DNA from: Planctomyces sp. SH-PL14
GTDB lineage: Bacteria; Planctomycetota; Planctomycetia; Planctomycetales; Planctomycetaceae
Direction: 5' to 3'
Assembly (NCBI RefSeq): GCF_001610835.1
Contig: NZ_CP011270.1
Coordinates: 558,001 to 622,000 of the forward strand
Length of the DNA stretch: 64,000 nt
The notes beneath the pieces were generated by a model. That model saw only the letters and a program-made list of their open reading frames with translations, searched no databases and had not been told where the DNA came from. Below, in pieces: positions 702 through 44,264 of the stretch (position 1 is the stretch's first letter; the number at the start of each line of letters is the position of its first letter). The translations under genes and the position numbers were made by a program.

Positions 702-3700
702 TCAATGGGCCGGAGACGACGAGGCCGCGAGGTCTTCGTCGGACGCCGGAAGACGCCGAGGCGCGAACCACGGGTAGATCGCCGGAACGACGAGCGACGT
801 CAGAAGCGTCGACGTGATGAGTCCCCCGATGACAACCGACGCGAGGGGCCGCTGCATCTCGGCGCCGTCGCTGGTCGACATCGCCATCGGCAGGAAGCCA
901 AGACTCGCGACGAGGGCCGTCATAAGGACCGGCCGCAGGCGCGAGAGGGCGGTCTCGTAGGTCGCGTCCTTCATCGGGATGCCGGTGCCACGGAGGTTCT
1001 CCGCGGCACTGACCCACACCAGACCGTTCAGGACCGCGACGCCGAACAGGGCGATGAATCCGACGCCGGCCGAGATGCTGAACGGCATTCCGCGGAGGGC
1101 GAGCGCGAACACGCCCCCCGAGGCGGCGATCGGGACGGCGAGGAAGATCAGGAGCGCCAGGCTGGCGCTCTGGAACGTCGTGTGAAGCAGCAGGAAGATC
1201 AGCAGGAGGACGATGGGTGTGATGAGGATCAGCCGCTGGCTGGCCGACTGAAGGTTCTCGAAGTCGCCCCCCCAACGGATCTCGTACCCGGTCGGGAGCG
1301 TGATTCCCTCGCGAATTTTTTTCTGAGCTTCCGAGACGAACGTCGCCACGTCACGGCCCCGAACGTTCGCCGAGACGAAGGTCCGGCGGCGGTTGGACTC
1401 GTGCTCGACGGAGGGGGGCGTCTCTTCAATCTTGACGTCCGCCAGATCGCCGAGCGGGACCGGCTTTCCTCCAGCGGACGAGACCGGGAGCTGTTCGATC
1501 CGGGCGACCTCGTTCCGCCAGTCCTCGGGGATGCGGACGATGATCGGGAACCGGGCTCGTCCTTCGAAGATCTGTCCGACCTCGTGACCGCCGATCGAGG
1601 CGACGACGTCCATGACCTTCTGGGCGTCGATCCCGTAACGGGCGAGAGCGTCGCGGCGTGGGACGACCGTGACGGTGGTCAGGTTCGCCTGGAAGTCTGC
1701 CTTCACGTCGACCGCGCCGGGGATCTCCTTCAGCAGCCGCTCGATCTTCTTCGCCGTCTCGCCCAGAAACGTCAGGTCGTCTCCGTAGAGCAGGACCGCG
1801 ACGTCGGCCTTAACCCCGGCCACGAGTTCGTCGACCCGCATCTCGATGGGCTGCGTGAAGCCGAAGACCGCTCCCGGGACCTTGGCAGTCAGGGCGTCGG
1901 ACATATCGCGGATGAGCTGGTCCCGCGTCATCCCTTTCCGCCAGTCGTGCTGGTCTTTGAGCATGACCCACACGTCGGTCTGGTGGACCCCCATGACGTC
2001 GTTGGCGATCTCGGGCCGGCCGGTCTTGCAGAAGACTGTCTGGACCTCGGGGAATGGCTTGAGCGTCTTCTCGATCTGCGTCGACATCCCGATCGCCCCT
2101 TCCAGCGAGGCACTCGGGAGCCGGACCGCTTCGACGAGCAGATCCCCTTCCTCAAGCTTCGGCATGAACTCGGCCCCAAGATTCAGCGCGACCGGGATGC
2201 TGACGACGAAGACCGCGAGCGAGACGAGCGTCGTCAGGACCGGGAAGCGGATCGTCCGCTCGACGAGCGGGCGGTAGAGGAACTTGATCCACCGGACGAG
2301 GAACACGTCCTTGTCTTCCAGGTTCTTCGGCAGGGCAAGCGAGGCCATCGCCGGCATGAAGGTCATCGAGAGGATCAGCGAGCCGAACAGGGCAAAGAGG
2401 ACCGTCAGGGCCATCGGCCGGAACAGTTTCCCCTCCGTCCCCTCGAGCATCAGGATCGGCAGGTAGACGATGGCGATGATCAGCTCGCCGAACATGGTCG
2501 GCTTGCGGACCTCGATCGCCGCGTCGCGGATGATGTCGACCCGCGATTTCCCGGGGGGCGCGTGCGAGAGGCGGTGGATGCAGTTCTCGACCATGATGAC
2601 CGACGAGTCGACGATCAGGCCGAAGTCGATCGCTCCGAGGCTCATCAGGCTCGCCGTGATTCCGAACGTTTGCATCAGCGTCGTGGCAAACATCATCGAC
2701 AGCGGGATCGCCAGAGCGACGATCACCCCCGCCTTGAAGCTCCCCAGCATGATGAGGAGCACGAAGACCACGAGGGCGCCCCCCTCGACCAGGTTCTTGA
2801 CGACCGTTTTCAGCGTCCGACCGATGAGGGCGGAGCGGTCGTAGATGACCTCAATCCGCACTCCCGGCGGAAGCGACGGCTGGATCTCGACGAGCCGCTG
2901 CTTGACCCGTTCGACGACCTCCCGCGAGTTCTCGCCGATCAGCATCATGGTCAGCCCGGTGACTGCTTCGCCGCGACCGTCACGGGTGACGGCCCCCTGG
3001 CGGGTCATGGGGGCTTCGGTCACGCTCGCGACATCGCGGATGAGGAGAGGGTTGCCGTCCCCTTCCCTCCGTAGCACGATCTCTTCGATGTCCCCCACGT
3101 TGCCGAGGAGGGCCTGGCCGCGGATGAACCGCTGTTCATCGTGGTGGACGACGTACCCACCGCCCGCCGAGGCGTTGTTCTCTTCGATCCGGGCGAACAG
3201 GTCATCGAGCGTCAGGCCATAGCTGGCGAGGCGGTCCGGGTTCGGGCGGATCTCGAAGGTGCGGTAGAAGCCGCCGTGCGTGTTGACCTCGGTCACCCCG
3301 CGGACTTCGCGGAGCTTCGGGACGACATCCCATTCGAGAATCGTCCGGAGCTGCATCGGCGAGTAGGCGTCCCCGCGGACCTCGAACTGAAGGATCTCCC
3401 CGAGGGCGGTCGTGAGCGGTCCCAGTTCGGGGGTGCCGTATCCCGCGGGGATCAGCGCGGAAGCCGCGGAGATCCGCTCCGCGACGAGCTGGCGGGCCTG
3501 GTAGAGGTTCGTCCCTTCCTGGAAGACGATCGTCACGACCGAGATCCCGAACTTGGAGACGCTGCGGACTTCCTCGACCTTGGGGAGGCCTCCCATCGTC
3601 GATTCGACGGGGTAGGTGACATACCGCTCGACCTCGACCGGGGAGAGCGAGCCAGCGTTCGTGATGACCGTCACTTGGACGTTGGTCATGTCCGGAACGG

Positions 3701-3812
3701 CGTCGATCGGCAGGTGGAGCGCGGCGTTGATCCCCGCCGCAGCCATGAGGAGGGTTCCCGTCAGGACGAGGAACCGGTTCTTGAGCGAAACTTCAATGAG
3801 TTGGGAGAGCAT
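702..3812 (-). CDS. czcA: Heavy-metal efflux RND transporter, CzcA/CusA family
   Basis: A 1036-residue inner-membrane RND pump, the usual length for the heavy-metal (HME) family. It opens with the classic MLSQLIEVSLKNRFLV helix, followed by a periplasmic porter domain (ITNAGSLSPVEVERYVTYPV) and a TM4 region with DFGLIVDSSVIMVEN. That DFG-x3-D pattern is the one described for pumps of divalent cations (Co, Zn, Cd, Ni), rather than the Cu/Ag pattern. It would export metal by proton antiport with an adaptor and an outer-membrane channel. The adaptor gene lies 132 bases upstream on the same strand; no outer-membrane factor gene is visible. The start ATG at 3812 matches the family N-terminus. The substrate is inferred. 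Confidence 0.93.
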   Translation of the reverse strand: MLSQLIEVSLKNRFLVLTGTLLMAAAGINAALHLPIDAVPDMTNVQVTVITNAGSLSPVEVERYVTYPVESTMGGLPKVEEVRSVSKFGISVVTIVFQEGTNLYQARQLVAERISAASALIPAGYGTPELGPLTTALGEILQFEVRGDAYSPMQLRTILEWDVVPKLREVRGVTEVNTHGGFYRTFEIRPNPDRLASYGLTLDDLFARIEENNASAGGGYVVHHDEQRFIRGQALLGNVGDIEEIVLRREGDGNPLLIRDVASVTEAPMTRQGAVTRDGRGEAVTGLTMMLIGENSREVVERVKQRLVEIQPSLPPGVRIEVIYDRSALIGRTLKTVVKNLVEGGALVVFVLLIMLGSFKAGVIVALAIPLSMMFATTLMQTFGITASLMSLGAIDFGLIVDSSVIMVENCIHRLSHAPPGKSRVDIIRDAAIEVRKPTMFGELIIAIVYLPILMLEGTEGKLFRPMALTVLFALFGSLILSMTFMPAMASLALPKNLEDKDVFLVRWIKFLYRPLVERTIRFPVLTTLVSLAVFVVSIPVALNLGAEFMPKLEEGDLLVEAVRLPSASLEGAIGMSTQIEKTLKPFPEVQTVFCKTGRPEIANDVMGVHQTDVWVMLKDQHDWRKGMTRDQLIRDMSDALTAKVPGAVFGFTQPIEMRVDELVAGVKADVAVLLYGDDLTFLGETAKKIERLLKEIPGAVDVKADFQANLTTVTVVPRRDALARYGIDAQKVMDVVASIGGHEVGQIFEGRARFPIIVRIPEDWRNEVARIEQLPVSSAGGKPVPLGDLADVKIEETPPSVEHESNRRRTFVSANVRGRDVATFVSEAQKKIREGITLPTGYEIRWGGDFENLQSASQRLILITPIVLLLIFLLLHTTFQSASLALLIFLAVPIAASGGVFALALRGMPFSISAGVGFIALFGVAVLNGLVWVSAAENLRGTGIPMKDATYETALSRLRPVLMTALVASLGFLPMAMSTSDGAEMQRPLASVVIGGLITSTLLTSLVVPAIYPWFAPRRLPASDEDLAASSSPAH

Positions 3813-3944
3813 GGGGGCGGGGTCCAGGGACTAAGGCCTGGACGGAAGGAGGGAGCGAGGGACCAAGGCCGGGGTCCATGGGCAGCCGCACGGAGGCGCG
3901 GGCCGACGGAAGAACCGAGACCAATGCGGAAGAATTCCGGAGCG

Positions 3945-5411
3945 TTACTCGTCTGCTTCGAGGAGCAGTTCCGACTTCAGAAAGAAGGTCCCGGCAGTGA
4001 CGACGGCGTCCCCCGCCTGCAGCCCCTCCGTGATCTCGATCCAGTCCCGGTCCTGAAGCCCCGGCTTGACCGGCACCTCCCGGAACGCGCGGTCCCCCTG
4101 CGACACGAATACGAAGGCCGAGCCGTCGTGCCGCGTCACCGCGGACTCCGGCACGGCGATCACGGTCCGGCTGGCGTCCACGGGAATCGTCACCCGGACG
4201 AACAGCCCCGGCCGGAGCAGCCCGTCCGTGTTGTCGATCGCTCCGATCAGCGGCACCGAGTTCGTCTCCGCCGAGACCTCCCGACCGACGTAGTGGATCT
4301 TCGCCGGGAGGATTTTCCCGGCGATGGCCGGCGTTTCGACCGAGAGCGGATCCCCTTCATGAAGCCGGACCGCGGACCAGTCCCGCTCCCGCAGGTCCGC
4401 CGCGACCCACAGCCGGCTCGTATCGGCCAGGACGAAGAGCGGCTCGCCGAGCTGCGTCCGCTCCGCCGTCGACACGAGCTTTTGCTCGATCGTCCCGGCG
4501 AACGGGGCCTGGATCTCGACCGACGACAGGTCGGACGGGGCGGACTTGGCACTCATGCTCTCCGTGTAGCCGAGCAGCGTGTTGAGATGCTGCCGGCTGA
4601 CGTCGAGACGCCGCCGGGCGGCTTCGACGCCGACTTCCGACTGCCGGTACGCCTGGCGGCTTTCGAACACCGCCTGCTCCATGGCTCCCTTGAGCCCGGC
4701 GTCGGCCGACTCAAGCTCGCTCATCCGCTCGCGGACCATCCGCTGCGGGACGGCGCCGTTGTCGAGGGCCCCCGACACACCCTGAGCCAGCGAATCCGCC
4801 AGCCGCAACCGCGAATAGGCCGTCAGCACCCCTTCGCCCCCCTTGCCCAGCGGGACGGATCGGAAGGTATTGCGGATCGCATCAAGCGGGTCCTTGCGGC
4901 CGACCGCCTCGCTCAGAGCGAAGATCCCCTCGTTCGTCTTTCCCCGCCAGGAGAGTTCTTCCTCCAGGACCCGCAGCTCCCCCTCGCGCTGGAGGACGTC
5001 CGCCCGCGCGGTCCCGACCTCGGGGCTGGAGAGAATCGCCAGAACCTGTCCGGCAACGACAGCGTCTCCCGGCTTCACGAGGACGTCGGCGAGGACTCCG
5101 GCGGTCGCGGCACGGACCGAAATGTGCCGGGTGTCGTCGTACTGGAGCCGACCTGGGACCGTGATCGACCGTCCCAGCGACCGGGCCGCGACCGGCTCGA
5201 CGGCGATGCGGGCCGCCTCCGCTTTCTCAAGTGAAAGGACAACGACAGCCGGAGCGTCCGTCGCTGTCGGGCCGGAGGGCTTGGACTCCCCGGCGGTCGG
5301 CTTCTCGGAGGCTTCGGCGGTCGACCGCTGCCAGGGACGATAGACGAGGGCGGCGCCCCCGGCGCCGGCTGCGACGAGCGCAACGACAAGAGAGACGTGA
5401 CGTCTTTTCAT
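3945..5411 (-). CDS. czcB: RND efflux periplasmic adaptor subunit (CzcB/CusB type)
   Basis: A 488-residue membrane-fusion protein. The ATG at 5411 gives MKRRHVSLVVALVAAGAGG, a signal/anchor helix; an in-frame TTG 30 bases upstream is less likely. Next come a proline-rich linker, the first half of the lipoyl domain (VLADVLVKPGDAVVAGQVLA), a helical hairpin rich in Arg/Glu/Leu, the second lipoyl half (VEIQAPFAGTIEQKLVS) and a C-terminal beta-barrel (LRPGLFVRVTIPVDASRTVI). It would link the RND pump encoded downstream to an outer-membrane channel. No N- or C-terminal heavy-metal-binding extension is obvious. It probably shares a transcript with the pump and perhaps with the His-rich protein upstream. 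Confidence 0.92.
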   Translation of the reverse strand: MKRRHVSLVVALVAAGAGGAALVYRPWQRSTAEASEKPTAGESKPSGPTATDAPAVVVLSLEKAEAARIAVEPVAARSLGRSITVPGRLQYDDTRHISVRAATAGVLADVLVKPGDAVVAGQVLAILSSPEVGTARADVLQREGELRVLEEELSWRGKTNEGIFALSEAVGRKDPLDAIRNTFRSVPLGKGGEGVLTAYSRLRLADSLAQGVSGALDNGAVPQRMVRERMSELESADAGLKGAMEQAVFESRQAYRQSEVGVEAARRRLDVSRQHLNTLLGYTESMSAKSAPSDLSSVEIQAPFAGTIEQKLVSTAERTQLGEPLFVLADTSRLWVAADLRERDWSAVRLHEGDPLSVETPAIAGKILPAKIHYVGREVSAETNSVPLIGAIDNTDGLLRPGLFVRVTIPVDASRTVIAVPESAVTRHDGSAFVFVSQGDRAFREVPVKPGLQDRDWIEITEGLQAGDAVVTAGTFFLKSELLLEADE

Positions 5412-5518
5412 GGGAATCGACTCGGAGGGGCGCAGGCGCAAGCAGGCACGCTACGCAGGAAAGAGAAGACGAGAACGCGGGACAGCATCGGGAAGCCAGC
5501 CGGCTCCCCGCCCGGATC

Positions 5519-6137: not shown

Positions 6138-6275
6138 CCACAGATGAACACAGATAAACACAGATTTGGAAAGGAGACGGTGTGGCGGCCTGTGCGGGGC
6201 TCACCCGCGGTCGGCCCGTGCAAAGGCGAGCGAGTCGAGTCATCGGTCCTCTCTCTGATCTGTGTTCATCTGTGG
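6138..6275. repeat. Palindromic spacer with CACAGATGAACACAGAT arms
   Basis: The left arm CCACAGATGAACACAGAT (6138-6155) is perfectly complementary to 6258-6275, an 18-bp inverted repeat around a 102-base centre. The left arm continues with another ACACAGAT unit. It sits in the 303-base gap (6014-6316) between the DUF1559 gene and the His-rich gene, both on the minus strand, and may act as a processing or termination structure. Confidence 0.8.
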
Positions 6276-6316: not shown

Positions 6317-7327
6317 TCAGAACTCGCCCACCAGTTCCTTCCCCTTCCGCGAGAGAAGTGCCGACAAGGTCTGAAGCGCGATGTTCTCCGGACAAAAGCG
6401 GACCGAGGCATCGACCATCAGGAAGTTCGCGCCCCCGGCGTGATGGCTGTGGAACTCCTGCCCAAAGTCGCACCCCAGCTTCCCGATGTTCGGGCTGTTG
6501 TTCGCAACCTGGCACGACGCGAACCTCGTCATCCCCGCGGTGCCGAACCGCCCGTTCAGCGGTGCGCTCTGATCGAAGTAGTTCTTATGCCCCGCCCACA
6601 GACCGTGGATCGCCTCGGGGGCCTCGCCGAGCAGGACCGTGTTGCTCGTGCCATCGAGAATGTCGCGGATCCCAATGCTCGTCTCCCCTGCCCCGCGGAT
6701 GACGCCGCGGCCGAAGCCGTCGGTGTCCCCCAGGTCGGCGTACGAGTTCTGGCAGTTGCTCATCGGGTAGCAGCGGAGCCCCCGCTCACCCCAGTTTCCG
6801 CCGTAGTCGCTCCGTCCCATCTTCGGATGGGTCGCGTTGTCGCCATTCGACTTCAGGTCGCCGGCGCCCGGGTTCGAGGGGCAGATAAAGACCGGCAGGA
6901 CCGTCGCGCAGAGCGCCGCGTTATCGGCGTGAAGGTAAGGCTCATTCTGGTTGTATCGGTGAAAGAGCCCCGTCTGATCGAGATGTGGCAGGATCGCGTT
7001 CCCCCAGCTCACGACGCGACCGGCGCGGGCCCCGGCGGTGACCCACAGCGCGGGGGATCCCATCCCGCCGCCATAGCCCCCCTTCGGAAACATCCCGCAC
7101 GACTCGTGGTAGTTGTTGAGTGCCAGGCCGAGCTGCTTGAGGTGATTGCGGCACTGGGTCTGCCGCGCCGATTCCCGGGCCTGCTGCACCGCCGGGAGGA
7201 GGATGGCTACGAGGACCGCAATGATGGCGATCACGACGAGCAGCTCGATGAGGGTAAACCCGCGATACCGGGAATTCCGGCGCGAGAGAGACCGGCGCGC
7301 GCAGCCACAGACAGAAGCGTAAGACAT
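6317..7327 (-). CDS. DUF1559 family pseudopilin-like protein under a cobalamin riboswitch
   Basis: 336 residues. The N-terminus carries a type II/IV prepilin methylation motif, [20 protein letters not shown] (about residues 24-43), then the planctomycete DUF1559 hallmark QQARESARQTQCRNHLKQLG. Near the C-terminus are DGTSNTVLLGE and the VDASVRF motif (usually DGSVRF) with a GG-containing loop before it. The protein would be cleaved after Gly by a prepilin peptidase and anchored in the membrane by its helix; the function of DUF1559 proteins is not established. A cobalamin riboswitch lies about 125 bases upstream on the same strand, which is unexpected. The next gene downstream is 303 bases away, across a palindrome. 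Confidence 0.92.
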   Translation of the reverse strand: MSYASVCGCARRSLSRRNSRYRGFTLIELLVVIAIIAVLVAILLPAVQQARESARQTQCRNHLKQLGLALNNYHESCGMFPKGGYGGGMGSPALWVTAGARAGRVVSWGNAILPHLDQTGLFHRYNQNEPYLHADNAALCATVLPVFICPSNPGAGDLKSNGDNATHPKMGRSDYGGNWGERGLRCYPMSNCQNSYADLGDTDGFGRGVIRGAGETSIGIRDILDGTSNTVLLGEAPEAIHGLWAGHKNYFDQSAPLNGRFGTAGMTRFASCQVANNSPNIGKLGCDFGQEFHSHHAGGANFLMVDASVRFCPENIALQTLSALLSRKGKELVGEF

Positions 7328-7424
7328 GGAGAGCCGTCCTTTCCGGGCCAGGCGGTTCGGCCGCGCGGAAAGGCACCGATGTCGACAATGACACCTGGGA
7401 CATGCCCTCCACGGATGTCTTCAG

Positions 7425-7620
7425 GCCGAAACATCGCATGGCAGTCCCGTCGGGCCGTATTCTGGCTTGCGAGTCAGACGGTCCCGGACGCCTTCCCACC
7501 GACGTGATGTCGGCAGTGGCATAGTGTCCGGGACCTCCTCGCTTACAGCGGCGGTCCCGCGCCGGATTCGCACCGGCTTCCTGTCCGATCCAGGGGATCG
7601 AACGCCCAACGGGGTTGAGT
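7425..7620 (-). promoter_or_regulatory. Cobalamin riboswitch, minus strand
   Basis: Read on the minus strand this has the B12 riboswitch core in order: GGAAGCCGGTGCGAATCCGG (about 7578-7559), CCGCCGCTGTAAGCG, a GCCACTG box (about 7523-7517), GGGAAGGCG (about 7500-7492) and the closing GCAAGCCAGAATACGGCC. Spacing between boxes is normal. It lies in the leader of the DUF1559 gene, with about 100 bases of expression platform before the ATG. No clear U-tract terminator was seen, so the mode of control is open. By analogy with known members, AdoCbl or a related cobalamin would repress the downstream gene. Confidence 0.9.
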
Positions 7621-7669
7621 GGGCGAACCATAGGAGGGGCGTGCAGTGAATTCAATCCGCCTTCAAAGC

Positions 7670-7976
7670 ACCGGGTCCAGGGGCACCCTGGTGGGGGATG
7701 CAAGGGGGCAACGCCCTCTTGCCCGCCGGAGGCCTGGCGGTCGAGAGATGTCTGAAGGAGTGAGTGTCCAAACGCGGACACCGTGCCGGATGCCCCTTCA
7801 CCAACCCGCGGAGATTGCAAAGCGAGCGGTGAGTTCTCAACGCCGGTACCACAAAGGGGACGTCCGTTGCGTGCCAAGGTTCCTCACAGGAGTGCCTCCG
7901 GCGGCAAGGGGTTGCCCCCTTGACCCCGGCTGCCGTCGCACGTTGGGTCTGAGGAAGCAAAGCCGTGCCGGCAAGA
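7670..7976 (+). repeat. Dispersed ~310-bp structured repeat, copy 2
   Basis: Full-length copy from CCGGGTCCAGGGGCACCCTGG to GCCGGCAAGATCG, with the same internal blocks as copy 1. It sits exactly between two divergent cobalamin riboswitches, so it occupies or adjoins the promoter region of both transcripts. That is unlike the other copies, most of which lie next to stop codons. Confidence 0.92.
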
Positions 7977-8077
7977 TCGCGGTGCTTGTGAACTTGAGCC
8001 TTAGGCGGCTTTGTGAATCCGCCGAAGGAGGCCGTTGACATTCCGTTAACCCACGATATCTTGCCTCGCGTTGCTGG

Positions 8078-8285
8078 TCGGGCACCATCACTTGTGGTGT
8101 CCGCGAAAGAGGGAACACCGGTGCAAAACCGGGACTGCCCCGCAGCGGTAAGCGGAAACGACCGCCGTCATGGCACTGGATCTTCAGGTCCGGGAAGCGA
8201 CGGCCAGTAGGCGCGAGCCCCCCTTCATCAGTCCGATGGAGACGGGAACTCGCACGTCCGCGAGTCCGAAGACCTGCCGGCAACG
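8078..8285 (+). promoter_or_regulatory. Cobalamin riboswitch upstream of nrdA
   Basis: All core boxes are visible on the plus strand: GGGAACACCGGTGCAAAACC (8111-8130), GCCCCGCAGCGGTAAGC (8137-8153), TGGCACTGG (8171-8179), GGGAAGCGACGGCCAGTAGG (8192-8211) and the closing GTCCGAAGACCTGCC (8264-8278). It precedes a B12-independent ribonucleotide reductase operon. Repression of such enzymes by cobalamin, so that a B12-dependent class II enzyme is used when B12 is available, is known in actinobacteria; here it is inferred from the arrangement. Confidence 0.94.
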
Positions 8286-8628
8286 GAGCGGTGTGGCGTT
8301 CACGAGGAAGGGCAGTTGTTGCTGCCAGCCCACCCCGCTGTCGAACGGAGCCTTCGTGGGAAAGGGCGGCCGAGGATGATGTCTGGCGGTATCGCTTTAC
8401 GCGCATCGAGTGTCCGGCTTGGGACACCCCCTCTGTTCTCCCGGCTCCCGCGGGGCGTTTCTAAACGCACCTCCGCACTCTGGCCGTCCCGCGACGGCTG
8501 AGCCCTCGTGAGTGTCTCTCCTCCGGACCGCTGAACCGATTCTCTTCAGCGATCTCTCGGTTCGATCCAACGCGCCCCCGTTGCGTCGGCCGTTCACCTA
8601 CTTTCCTCTCTTCGGACTGGATGGATTC
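8286..8628 (+). other. Long nrdA leader / riboswitch expression platform
   Basis: 343 bases between the riboswitch and the chosen nrdA ATG. It holds small hairpins, including GGCAG-TTGTTG-CTGCC (about 8321-8336), GCGTT-TCTA-AACGC (about 8456-8469) and GCTGAA...TTCAGC (about 8531-8551). No hairpin is followed by a clear T-run. A GTG at 8512 is in frame with nrdA and could start a 39-residue longer protein, but that stretch has no family match. Confidence 0.5.
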
Positions 8629-11471
<2,843 letters not shown>

Positions 11472-11481
<10 letters not shown>

Positions 11482-11876: not shown

Positions 11877-12989
11877 ATGTCGCATCACGATCCGAACGAA
11901 AGACCGCCCATGTTCCTCTCCGAGACGCTCGCTCCCTCGACGGCCTCCGCTCCCTCCTCCGCAGCCGCCGGGCTCGGCCGGATCGATGCCAGTTCGAAGC
12001 GGCTCATCAGTTGCCATCAGGTCGACGTCAACCAGCTCATGCCGCTCAAGTACAAGTGGGCGTGGGAGCACTACGTCAACGCCTGTGCGAACCACTGGAT
12101 GCCGACCGAAGTCGCGATGAACAAGGACATCGAGACGTGGCGGTCGAGCAAGCTCACGCCGGACGAGCGGCGGGTGATTCTGCGGAACCTGGGGTTCTTT
12201 GCGACCGCCGAGAGCCTTGTCGGCAACAACCTTGTCCTGGCGATCTTCCGCCATGTGACGAACGCCGAGTGCCGCCAGTACCTCCTGCGGCAGGCCTTCG
12301 AAGAAGCCGTGCACACGCATACGTTTCTGTACGTCGTGGAGAGCCTGGGCCTCAATGAGGGGGAGGTTTTCAACATGTATCACGAGGTGCCGGCGATCGC
12401 GAAGAAGGACGACTTCGAGATGGAGCTGACGACGGAGATCCTCGATCCGAGTTTCACGACTGACACTTTTGAAGGGGCTCAGGCGTTTCTGAAGAACCTG
12501 ATCGGTTATTACCTGATCATGGAGGGAATCTTCTTTTACACCGGGTTCGTGATGGTGCTGTCGTTCCACCGACGGAACCTGATGACGGGGATTGGGGAGC
12601 AGTTTCAGTACATCCTGCGGGACGAGACGATCCACTTGAACTTCGGGATCGACCTCATCAACGGGATCCGGAATGAGAATCCGCATCTTTGGACGGCCGA
12701 GTTCCAGCAGGCGATGGTAGATCGGATCCGGCAGGCGGTGGAGTTGGAGATTGAGTATGCCCGCGACTGTCTGCCGCGGGGGATTCTGGGGCTCAATGCC
12801 GAACTGTTCCGGGACTATGTTCAGTTCATTGCGGATCGTCGGCTGGAGCGGATCGGGTTGCCGACGCAGTATGGGTCGTCGAACCCGTTTCCTTGGATGA
12901 GTGAGACGATGGATCTGTCGAAGGAGAAGAATTTCTTCGAGACGCGGGTGACGGAGTATCAGAGTGCGTCGACGCTGAGCTGGGACTGA
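11877..12989 (+). CDS. nrdB: Ribonucleoside-diphosphate reductase beta subunit, class Ic-like
   Basis: 370 residues, a normal length for R2. Metal ligands can be followed: Glu78 in [10 protein letters not shown], Glu143 and His146 in [10 protein letters not shown], a Glu in the [10 protein letters not shown] helix, and Glu/His in [10 protein letters not shown]. In E. coli R2 the first ligand is Asp84 and the radical Tyr122 lies four residues after His118. Here the first ligand is Glu and the residue four after His146 is Phe150. This Glu/Phe combination marks class Ic enzymes such as that of Chlamydia trachomatis, which use a Mn(IV)/Fe(III) centre instead of a tyrosyl radical. The assignment is inferred from alignment by eye. 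The start could also be Met12. Confidence 0.95.
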
Positions 12990-12998
12990 GAACGGCGC

Positions 12999-13320
12999 CC
13001 TTGCCGGAACGGCGTCCATAGCTCAAACCCAATGTGCGACGGCAGCTTGGGGTCAAGGGGGCCACGCCCCCTTGCCGCCGGAGGCATTTTCGTTGAGGAA
13101 CCGTGGGACACAACGGACGTCCCCTTTGTGGGACCGGCGTTGAGGACTCACCGCTCGCTCCGCACGCAGCGGGTTGGTGAGGGGCATACGGCACGTTGTC
13201 CGCGCTTGGACACGCGCTCCTTCAGACATCTCTCGACGGCCAGGCCTCCGGCGGGCAAAGGGCCAAAGAAACAACACAGGCCCCTCTGCACTCCCCACCA
13301 GGGTGCCCCTGGACCCGGTG
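12999..13320 (-). repeat. Dispersed ~310-bp structured repeat, copy 3
   Basis: Full-length copy on the minus strand. Its conserved tail (CTTGCCGG read on plus at 13000) lies about ten bases after the nrdB stop, and its head, read on plus as CCCCTGGACCCGG, ends at 13320. Together with copy 2 it brackets the nrd operon in inverted orientation. Its head module contains an extra GGCCAAAGAAACAACACAGG segment, also seen in copy 4 in similar form. Confidence 0.92.
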
Positions 13321-19983: not shown

Positions 19984-20258
19984 CCGGGTCCAGGGGGAAC
20001 CCCTGGCCGCCGGAGGCGCTCCGGTGAGGAACCGTGGTCAACGACGGACGACCGCTTTGGGCCATCGGCGTTGAGAACTCGCCGTTCGCATTGCATTCCC
20101 CGCGGGTTGGTGAGGGGGCATCCGGCACGTTGTCCGCGTTTGGACACGGACTCCTTCAGACATCTCTCGACGGCCAGGCCTCCGGCGGGCAAGGGGCCAA
20201 AAAACAACACAGGCCCCCTTGCATCCCCCACCAGGGGTGCCCCCCCTGGACCCCGGCT
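19984..20258 (-). repeat. Dispersed repeat, copy 4 (shortened)
   Basis: A minus-strand copy about 275 bp long. The conserved tail (TGCCGTCGCACGTTGGG and beyond) is missing: the element ends in GGCCGCCGGAGGC on the plus strand next to a GGGTCCAGGGGGAACCCCTGG palindrome, so both ends here look like head modules. It carries the GGCCAAAAAACAACACAGG insertion shared with copy 3. Confidence 0.85.
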
Positions 20259-25142: not shown

Positions 25143-25460
25143 CCTTGCCGGACGGACTGTCATAGCTCAAACCCAACGTGCGACGGCAGCCGGGGTCAAG
25201 GGGGCACCCCCTTGCCGCCGGAGGCACTTCGATGAGGAACCGTGGTACGCAACGGATGTCCGGTTTGTGGTACCGGCGTTGAGGACTCCCTCAAAATACA
25301 CCGCTGGCGTCGCAATCCCCGCGGGTTGGTGAGGGGGCATACGGCACGCTGTCCGCGATTGGACACGTGCTCCTTCAGACATCTCTCGACGAGAGGGCCT
25401 CCGGCGGGCAAGGAGGCGTTGCCCCCTTGCATCCCCCACCAGGGTGCCCCTGGACCCGGT
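25143..25460 (-). repeat. Dispersed ~310-bp structured repeat, copy 5
   Basis: Full-length minus-strand copy. The tail module (GCGTCCTTGCCGGACGG on plus) begins at about 25141 and the head ends GGACCCGGT at 25460, 33 bases from the photolyase stop. The rest of the gap 24950-25142 shows nothing I recognise. Confidence 0.93.
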
Positions 25461-25493
25461 TCTTGGGCCGGAGAGGCTGGGGGACACTAAAAC

Positions 25494-29062: not shown

Positions 29063-29371
29063 ACCGGGTCCAGGGGCACCCTGGTGGGGGATGCAAGGGG
29101 GCAACGCCCCTTTGCCCGCCGGAGGCCTGGCCGTCGAGAGATGTCTGAAGGAGATCGTATCCAGACGCGGACGACGTGCCGGATGCCCCCTCACCAACAC
29201 GCTGGGATTCCAGAGCGAGCGGTGAGCCCTCAACGCCGGTTCCCAAAAGCGTACGTCCGTTGTGTACTACGGTTCCTCGTGGAAGCGCCTCCGGCGGCAA
29301 AGGGGTGAGACCCCCTTGACCCCAGTGGCCGTCGCACGATGGGTTTGAGCGTGCAGAGCCGTGCCGGCAAG
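29063..29371 (+). repeat. Dispersed ~310-bp structured repeat, copy 6
   Basis: Full-length plus-strand copy from CCGGGTCCAGGGGCACCCTGG to GCCGGCAAGTACG. It lies between the divergent aroE and holB genes, within 90 bases of the aroE start and 120 of the holB start, so it is in a promoter region. Bases 29372-29492 hold no recognisable feature. Confidence 0.92.
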
Positions 29372-29492
29372 TACGCCGTTCGAGCAATCGGCAAATGCCT
29401 TGCTGGCGACATTCCGAATGGCCTCGCTGACGTCCGCTCCCATTCCCCGCTACGCTCCAGAGTTCCGAGACACACAAAAGCACATCGCCACC

Positions 29493-37221: not shown

Positions 37222-37553
37222 ACTTGCCAGCAAGGCTATGCCCACTCAGACCTATCGCGCGACGGCACCCGGGGCTAAGGGGCGAAGAACACAACACAGC
37301 CCCTCTTGCCGCCGGAGGCAGTTTTATAGAGCAGTGATAAACAACGGATGTCCCCTTTGTGGCACAAGCGTTGAGGACTCCTCTACAACACGCCGCTCGC
37401 TTTGCAATCCCCGCGGATTGGCGAGGGCGCATCCGGCACGTTGTCCGCGCTTGGACACTCTCTCCTTCAGACAGCTCTCGACGGCCAGGCCTCCGGCGGG
37501 CAAAGGGGCGTTGCCCCCTTGCATCCCCCACCAGGATCCCCCTGGACCCGGTG
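37222..37553 (-). repeat. Dispersed repeat, copy 7 (degenerate tail)
   Basis: Minus-strand copy. The head (CCCCTGGACCCGGTG on plus, ending 37553) and middle match well. The tail is diverged: GGGCTAAGGGGCGAAGAACA replaces the usual hairpin, and TTGCCAGCAAGG replaces CTTGCCGGC at the far end. Bases 37554-37719 before the ABC operon show nothing clear. Confidence 0.88.
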
Positions 37554-43951: not shown

Positions 43952-44264
43952 TCCTTGCCGGCGCGGCTCCCATAGCTCAAGCCCAATTTGCGACGGCAGC
44001 CGGGGTCAAGGGGGTCTCACCCCCTTGCCGCCGGAGGCACTCCTGTGAGGAACCGTGGCAAACAACCGACGTCCGCTTCGTGGAACCGGCGTTGAGGACT
44101 CCCCGCTCGCTTCGCATTCCCGCGGGTTGGCGAGTGGGCATACGACACGGTGTCCGCGTTTGGACACGATCTCCTTCAGACATCTCCCGACGGCCAGGCC
44201 TCCGGCGGGCAAGGGGGGATTCTCCCCCCCTGCACTCCCCCACCAGGGTGCCCCTGGACCCGGT
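43952..44264 (-). repeat. Dispersed ~310-bp structured repeat, copy 8
   Basis: Full-length minus-strand copy that fills the space between two convergent genes: its tail (CTTGCCGGC on plus, 43954) begins within three to five bases of one stop codon and its head (GGACCCGGT, 44264) ends about ten bases from the other. The tail holds a good GGGGTCAAGGGGGTCTCACC hairpin strand. Confidence 0.94.

Follow-up and report, generated by a model that had tools for sequence, protein, structure and literature searches.

The class Ia ribonucleotide reductase (RNR) operon nrdABS of Streptomyces, which is controlled by an adenosylcobalamin riboswitch (Borovok 2006, as cited in PMC4991794), is the closest described counterpart of the right half of the locus analysed here. 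For the left half the nearest precedents are the DUF4465 and BtuJ proteins: according to PMC13398666, those DUF4465 proteins that have been tested bind B12, among them Pan from Mucisphaera calidilacus, and the terms planctomycet, DUF1559 and pilin are all absent from the main text of that paper. DUF1559 itself (PF07596, SBP_bac_10) has been called a family of unknown function and is the largest group of paralogues in Planctopirus limnophila, with 68 paralogues (PMC10632474); elsewhere it is described as a solute-binding family (PMC2754498). We found no report of DUF1559 as a target of a B12 riboswitch, nor of a planctomycete pilin or pseudopilin with such a riboswitch, in the open PMC literature, to which our search was confined (subscription papers lie outside its scope).

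In the window, by which we mean the whole 64-kb stretch of DNA that was analysed, a cmscan search of both strands at gathering thresholds returned exactly two matches to the Cobalamin family (RF00174, gathering cut-off 31.5 bits). The left aptamer occupies positions 7436-7624 of the minus strand (87.9 bits, E = 2.5e-20) and the right aptamer positions 8058-8295 of the plus strand (99.6 bits, E = 1.1e-23); both are full-length (model positions 1-189) and well above the cut-off, the aptamers themselves show no visible deviation from the family, and with these E-values a chance origin of the matches is excluded. A first-pass annotation of this DNA had placed two divergent cobalamin riboswitches at 7425-7620 (minus) and 8078-8285 (plus), with a repeat copy between them, one before an RNR gene and the other before a DUF1559 gene. 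The Infernal comparison with RF00174 by which it proposed to verify the pair bears out both elements and their orientation, with coordinates correct to within about 20 nt; the repeat copy is real (7665-7953), and the gene annotation agrees with the two targets. The aptamers are separated by 433 nt. Three cobalamin riboswitches were found in the whole genome (8.44 Mb), and the scan of the window gave no tRNA and no further Rfam family above its cut-off. RF00174 matches are present in 135 of the 170 genomes of the host's family, and among the matches listed a pair on opposite strands less than 1 kb apart could be recognized by eye only here and in one other genome (G161), where the divergent genes are a DUF1559 gene of the same subfamily as ours (DUF1559B, defined below) and a DUF4465 gene.

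What the right side has in common with the Streptomyces operon, as far as the cited account of the latter extends, is that class I nrdAB is preceded by a cobalamin riboswitch and that a B12-dependent class II enzyme is encoded in the same genome. The gene for the class I large chain, nrdA (ATP-cone and barrel; PRK07207, 1392 bits versus a cut-off of 965), runs from 8629 to 11481 on the plus strand, and is followed on the same strand by nrdB for the small chain (11877-12989; PRK07209, 620 bits versus 309); the list of open reading frames puts the start of nrdA at 8512, and the ATG at 8629 agrees with relatives. The class II enzyme, NrdJ, is encoded outside the window (C1:552339-555413; PRK06556, 1419 bits versus 859), about 11 kb from nrdA, and is the sole other match to an RNR large chain in the genome. 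The locus differs from the same account of Streptomyces in its host, whose kin are planctomycetes rather than actinobacteria, in having a DUF1559 gene as neighbour, and in a conserved CCUUC..GGGAAAGG..AUG element with a possible upstream open reading frame. CbiC is required for de novo synthesis of cobalamin. A search of the genome of the window gave no CbiC (0 of 1; the control was positive in 7 of 14), which makes de novo synthesis unlikely; as far as a single enzyme can tell, the organism probably needs an external cobamide.

The leader of nrdA begins with a good sigma-70-like promoter (TTGACA-16-TATCTT, 8035-8062, plus strand, 10 of 12 matches) directly before the right aptamer (1 found by the promoter scan against 0.1 expected); a similar TTGAC...ATAT pair can be seen by eye at the same place in five of the six other nrdA leaders, and none is visible in G134. 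Beyond the aptamer lies the conserved element, CCUUCNNGGGAAAGG ... AUG (8351-8378, plus strand), in which a sequence resembling a ribosome-binding site sits in a small hairpin, with a short reading frame beginning behind it. This arrangement is present in all seven nrdA riboswitch leaders (the leader alignments of the element cover six of them), with its GGGAAAGG located 59-63 nt past the aptamer match. A looser pattern of the same type occurs in 11 of 91 leaders, namely the 7 of nrdA, 3 of DUF1559B (that of the window included) and 1 other, versus 14 of 6570 control stretches from which the true sites were not removed. The DUF1559B leader of G134 also holds an element like CCUUCNNGGGAAAGG..AUG. 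In the six leaders compared (G142 was left out as near-identical to G140), 5 of the 7 pairs in the hairpin that follows the nrdA aptamer show changes in both partners, the structure having been drawn from those same leaders. The reading frame opened by the AUG would encode 41 amino acids in the window (8376-8501, plus strand) and from 20 to 81 across the seven leaders; its amino-acid sequence is unconserved among the more distant leaders, and it overlaps nrdA in five of the seven, though not in the window. Folding of the right leader gives no clear extra stability over shuffled sequences (z = 0.1 and 0.7), and no intrinsic terminator with a U-tract was found between 7200 and 8700, as compared to 1.2 in shuffles.

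The first gene behind the left riboswitch is a DUF1559 gene of 336 codons on the minus strand (6317-7327), the product of which matches PF07596 (159.5 bits versus 23.3) and the prepilin N-methylation motif PF07963 (37.1 bits versus 21.2), and no other Pfam family, DUF4465 included. Its candidate promoter (TTGAAT, 17 nt, TATGGT; 7627-7655, minus strand) is weak, with 8 of 12 matches; it was recognized by eye and falls below the 9 of 12 that the scanner needs for a report. Together with the stronger promoter of the other side it supports the earlier proposal that the two transcripts start a few hundred bases apart. Comparison of leaders identifies a hairpin directly 3' of the left aptamer (7414-7435, minus strand), the loop of which contains CGG in every one of the 14 DUF1559B leaders compared, extended to CGGCC in 12; we take its position to be that of P13/L13. 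Folding of the leader identifies a further hairpin, CCUUUCCG...CGGAAAGG (7338-7373, minus strand), which covers the DUF1559 ribosome-binding site, with no clear extra stability of the fold over shuffles (z = -1.4 and -1.1). An AlphaFold model of the protein built with 7 sequences has a mean pLDDT of 36.4, and a sequence search of the PDB recovered pilin N-termini only (22 sequences at E of 1 or less).

With 124 matches to PF07596 in the host genome, a DUF1559 gene by itself is a common object. The protein encoded here shares with the other planctomycete members of the family the PF07596 match and the prepilin motif, but belongs to a subfamily, B, which is set apart by a clade, conserved residues and a riboswitch of its own. 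When compared with 18 further DUF1559 proteins of this genome (from 20 background loci, two of which have no prepilin motif), subfamily B forms a single clade with support 100/99, and residues H247, K248, N249, D252, Q253, C272, C286, Q290, H293 and others are conserved in B and present in 0-1 of those 18. Members of B were located by protein similarity alone. The search of the 170 family genomes (E of 1e-60 or better) gave 15 places in 14 genomes. In a search of the class (397 genomes) B was located at 34 places, spread over 33 genomes, and 21 of these places lie outside the family. A same-strand RF00174 match lies upstream of B at 34 of the 36 places (14 of 15 in the family and 20 of 21 in the class only), with the proviso that here, as in all our counts of B places, riboswitches and neighbours, the genomes share descent and the events are not independent. 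The exception in the family (G005) has its riboswitch on the opposite strand, pointing to a DUF4465 gene, and in the class-level exception (G232) the spot where a riboswitch is expected holds a match that stays below the threshold (20.9 bits). The same-strand riboswitch is about 1.5 kb upstream of B in G340, and about 1.2 kb upstream in G193, with a DUF4465 gene between. Six relatives of B on contigs of named genomes, kept out of the 34 of 36 because they overlap in part with the other genomes searched, all have a riboswitch on the strand of the gene, in one case (L094) about 1.3 kb upstream; the named records of DUF1559 relatives are from Planctomycetaceae, Rhodopirellula, Aquisphaera and Stieleria. 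Judged from these comparisons of sequence, the main point, which the first-pass annotation missed, is that subfamily B is itself a conserved target of B12 riboswitches. Riboswitch control and the control of RNR are of a known kind; for the link to DUF1559, and so for the target of the left RF00174 riboswitch, the open PMC papers searched gave no precedent.

Subfamily B is also found near the proven B12-binding family. DUF4465 (PF14717) is present in 7 of the 170 family genomes, 6 of which also hold B, and in 99 of the 397 class genomes. A DUF4465 gene lies at most 3 kb from B at 15 of the 34 class-level places, with none that near at the remaining 19; 25 of the 33 genomes with B have DUF4465 somewhere and 8 do not (Fisher p = 1.6e-10, a value that ignores descent), and at this cut-off B was missing from 74 of the 99 class genomes that hold DUF4465. 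No DUF4465 match was obtained in the genome of the window. Mucisphaera calidilacus, the source of Pan, is itself a planctomycete. DUF1559B and the DUF4465/BtuJ proteins, as the latter are described in the source cited above, have in common that they are extracytoplasmic proteins linked to B12 riboswitches, and B often adjoins DUF4465; unlike them, DUF1559B is pilin-like, has no DUF4465 match, and its binding of B12 is a prediction. Both riboswitches of the window stand in the 5' leaders of genes that can be called B12-related, which applies to nrdAB on the right and, solely by virtue of its riboswitch links, to DUF1559B on the left.

Pilin-like genes behind riboswitches are not confined to subfamily B. 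A prepilin motif can be recognized on the same strand, in the interval from 60 nt before to 700 nt after the end of the aptamer, at 73 of the 92 family riboswitch sites examined. Among 1614 equally long control stretches taken from these loci, 13 contain the motif. The 92 sites, a part of all family sites, comprise high scorers, sites from better assemblies and genomes with several riboswitches; the controls come from loci of at least 9 kb, with two-site loci counted twice and the true sites kept in. Many of these genes fall by BLAST clustering into a second group, of which 8 members form one clade; for the single member compared with Pfam, the match is confined to the first 32 positions of DUF1559. 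The third riboswitch of the host genome precedes a gene of this group. Neighbourhoods of the second group (L052 and other loci) contain in part a small family-less protein, DUF71, DUF6580 and Peripla_BP_2, as judged from one member of each run against Pfam; DUF71 has earlier been linked to B12 salvage, according to PMC3541065. A cobalt ECF transporter, which we had considered as the downstream operon of the second group, was rejected, as Pfam gives Diphthami_syn_2 (DUF71), DUF6580 and Peripla_BP_2.

On the reading that we favour, and to which we assign a probability of about two in three, the locus would hold two separate B12-sensing OFF switches back to back. One would govern the B12-independent RNR and the other DUF1559B, a pseudopilin with a presumed role in B12 acquisition. 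With adenosylcobalamin or another cobamide plentiful, the right switch would lower the expression of class I NrdAB, leaving the synthesis of DNA precursors to B12-dependent NrdJ, and the left switch would lower DUF1559B, a pilin-like envelope protein which may serve B12 acquisition by capturing cobamides, either within the periplasm or along a fibre resembling a pilus; in B12 shortage NrdAB and DUF1559B would come on together. The OFF direction is predicted from established cobalamin riboswitches, and control would presumably act on the initiation of translation, by way of a hairpin that covers the ribosome-binding site. Because the conserved start codon behind the hairpin of the right leader belongs to the short upstream reading frame, the control of nrdA itself may be indirect, with Rho or shielding by ribosomes as conceivable means, which we offer as a conjecture. 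For DUF1559B, a role related to B12, including its binding, is likewise predicted from sequence, and the riboswitch link, together with the frequent B12-binding neighbours, suggests that the subfamily is an unrecognised family of B12-acquisition proteins. Several observations speak against the favoured reading: DUF4465, the most telling neighbour, has no match in this very genome; many B places have no DUF4465 nearby and many DUF4465 genomes have no B; the leader folds are not clearly more stable than shuffles; two B places have no same-strand riboswitch above the cut-off; and the DUF1559B aptamers do not form one clade. A wider proposal, which we put forward tentatively and regard as having somewhat less than an even chance, is that DUF1559B represents a new class of B12-binding, pilin-like proteins, such that planctomycetes would capture cobamides through a riboswitch-controlled pseudopilin, alone or with DUF4465, by a route other than import of the TonB type across the outer membrane, and other riboswitch-linked pilin-like genes would follow the same strategy. 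A subfamily tied to riboswitches and found near a proven B12-binding family would provide the first testable function for the very large DUF1559 family, and it raises the question of a role for pilin-like proteins in the uptake of small nutrients by planctomycetes. The divergent pair could also be used as a compact natural reporter, in which B12 shortage should turn on B12 capture and B12-independent RNR from one spot.

The pair might have arisen when a riboswitch was duplicated locally and inverted, bringing two genes under one control, as its spacing of 433 nt and inverted orientation would lead one to suspect; the ancestry of the aptamers makes this very improbable. In a tree of 44 aptamers (7 of nrdA, 4 of DUF4465, 23 of DUF1559B and 10 others; the DUF1559B aptamers of G161, shorter than 150 nt, and of G093, L144, L145, L152, L154, L157 and L158 are left out), the left aptamer falls within a clade of 10 DUF1559B riboswitches (support 100/100), while the right one falls within a clade of 7 nrdA riboswitches and 1 DUF1559B riboswitch (100/99). 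Identity between the left and the right aptamer is 67%, lower than the 82% and 80% that they share with their respective best-matching relatives. We made no use of the joining of a DUF4465-containing group with the nrdA clade, for which the tree warns of long-branch attraction. With such different kin, the pair can be understood as the juxtaposition of two lineages rather than as a local duplication. The single DUF1559B member of the nrdA clade, which does lend the duplication some support, is the riboswitch of G134, a genome in which nrdAB and DUF1559B are arranged in tandem, each with its own riboswitch (L045, G134:C20:2104797-2119567); there the position of the DUF1559B riboswitch in the tree suggests that a neighbouring switch was copied. 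The DUF1559B aptamers as a whole do not form one clade, with 5 label changes and several positions in the tree. Two ordinary riboswitches could also be neighbours by chance, with DUF1559 as a general envelope pilin whose control by B12 has nothing to do with uptake. This agrees with the abundance of DUF1559 genes in the host (the 124 matches given above) and with the rarity of the arrangement, as just 2 of the 14 family genomes with DUF1559B have nrdAB adjoining it (here and in G134, with flanks of 1.5 to 5 kb examined); we nevertheless consider it unlikely, because a general envelope pilin accounts poorly for the same-strand riboswitch at 34 of 36 B places, for the clade and conserved residues peculiar to B, for the DUF4465 neighbours at 15 of 34 places, and for the excess of prepilin motifs behind family riboswitches over controls.

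A different role for the left riboswitch would be to control, through the DUF1559 gene, the CusA/CzcA-type RND pump and adaptor (MFP) genes at 702-5441, and so to act on the traffic of cobalt rather than B12. These genes are downstream of DUF1559B on the same strand, B12 riboswitches before cobalt uptake operons have been reported (according to PMC2667541), and in G108 a 78% identical relative of the RND protein ends about 120 nt upstream of a second-group riboswitch (L028, 1-1381). However, no relative of the RND or MFP proteins of the window scoring above 150 bits lies beside DUF1559B in the other loci examined, and the DUF1559 stop (6317) and the next likely start (6013, a chosen start) are about 300 nt apart, with an inverted repeat (6138-6275) in the gap. 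As no conservation of the pump beside DUF1559B was seen in these loci, its inclusion in the unit is disfavoured, and we regard cobalt traffic as a rather improbable function.

According to the first-pass annotation, the two transcripts, which share this intergenic space, may respond to the same ligand. That the space or the repeat in it makes the two genes a unit finds no support: the aptamers group with different relatives, the adjacency of nrdAB and DUF1559B is rare, and the repeat is dispersed. The copy at 7665-7953 (plus strand) lies between the two promoters and outside the riboswitches, and is one of 8 copies of a repeat of about 310 bp that occur in the window in both orientations, the others being at 296-616, 12989-13320, 19986-20253, 25144-25464, 29063-29379, 37223-37553 and 43954-44264. 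At this density of about one copy per 8 kb of the window, we rejected the repeat as a shared control element. Genome-wide it has at least 40 long matches (40 scored of 1177 candidates), and probably more. The inverted repeat that follows the DUF1559 gene, ahead of its downstream neighbour, is a perfect one of 18 bp, CCACAGATGAACACAGAT / ATCTGTGTTCATCTGTGG.
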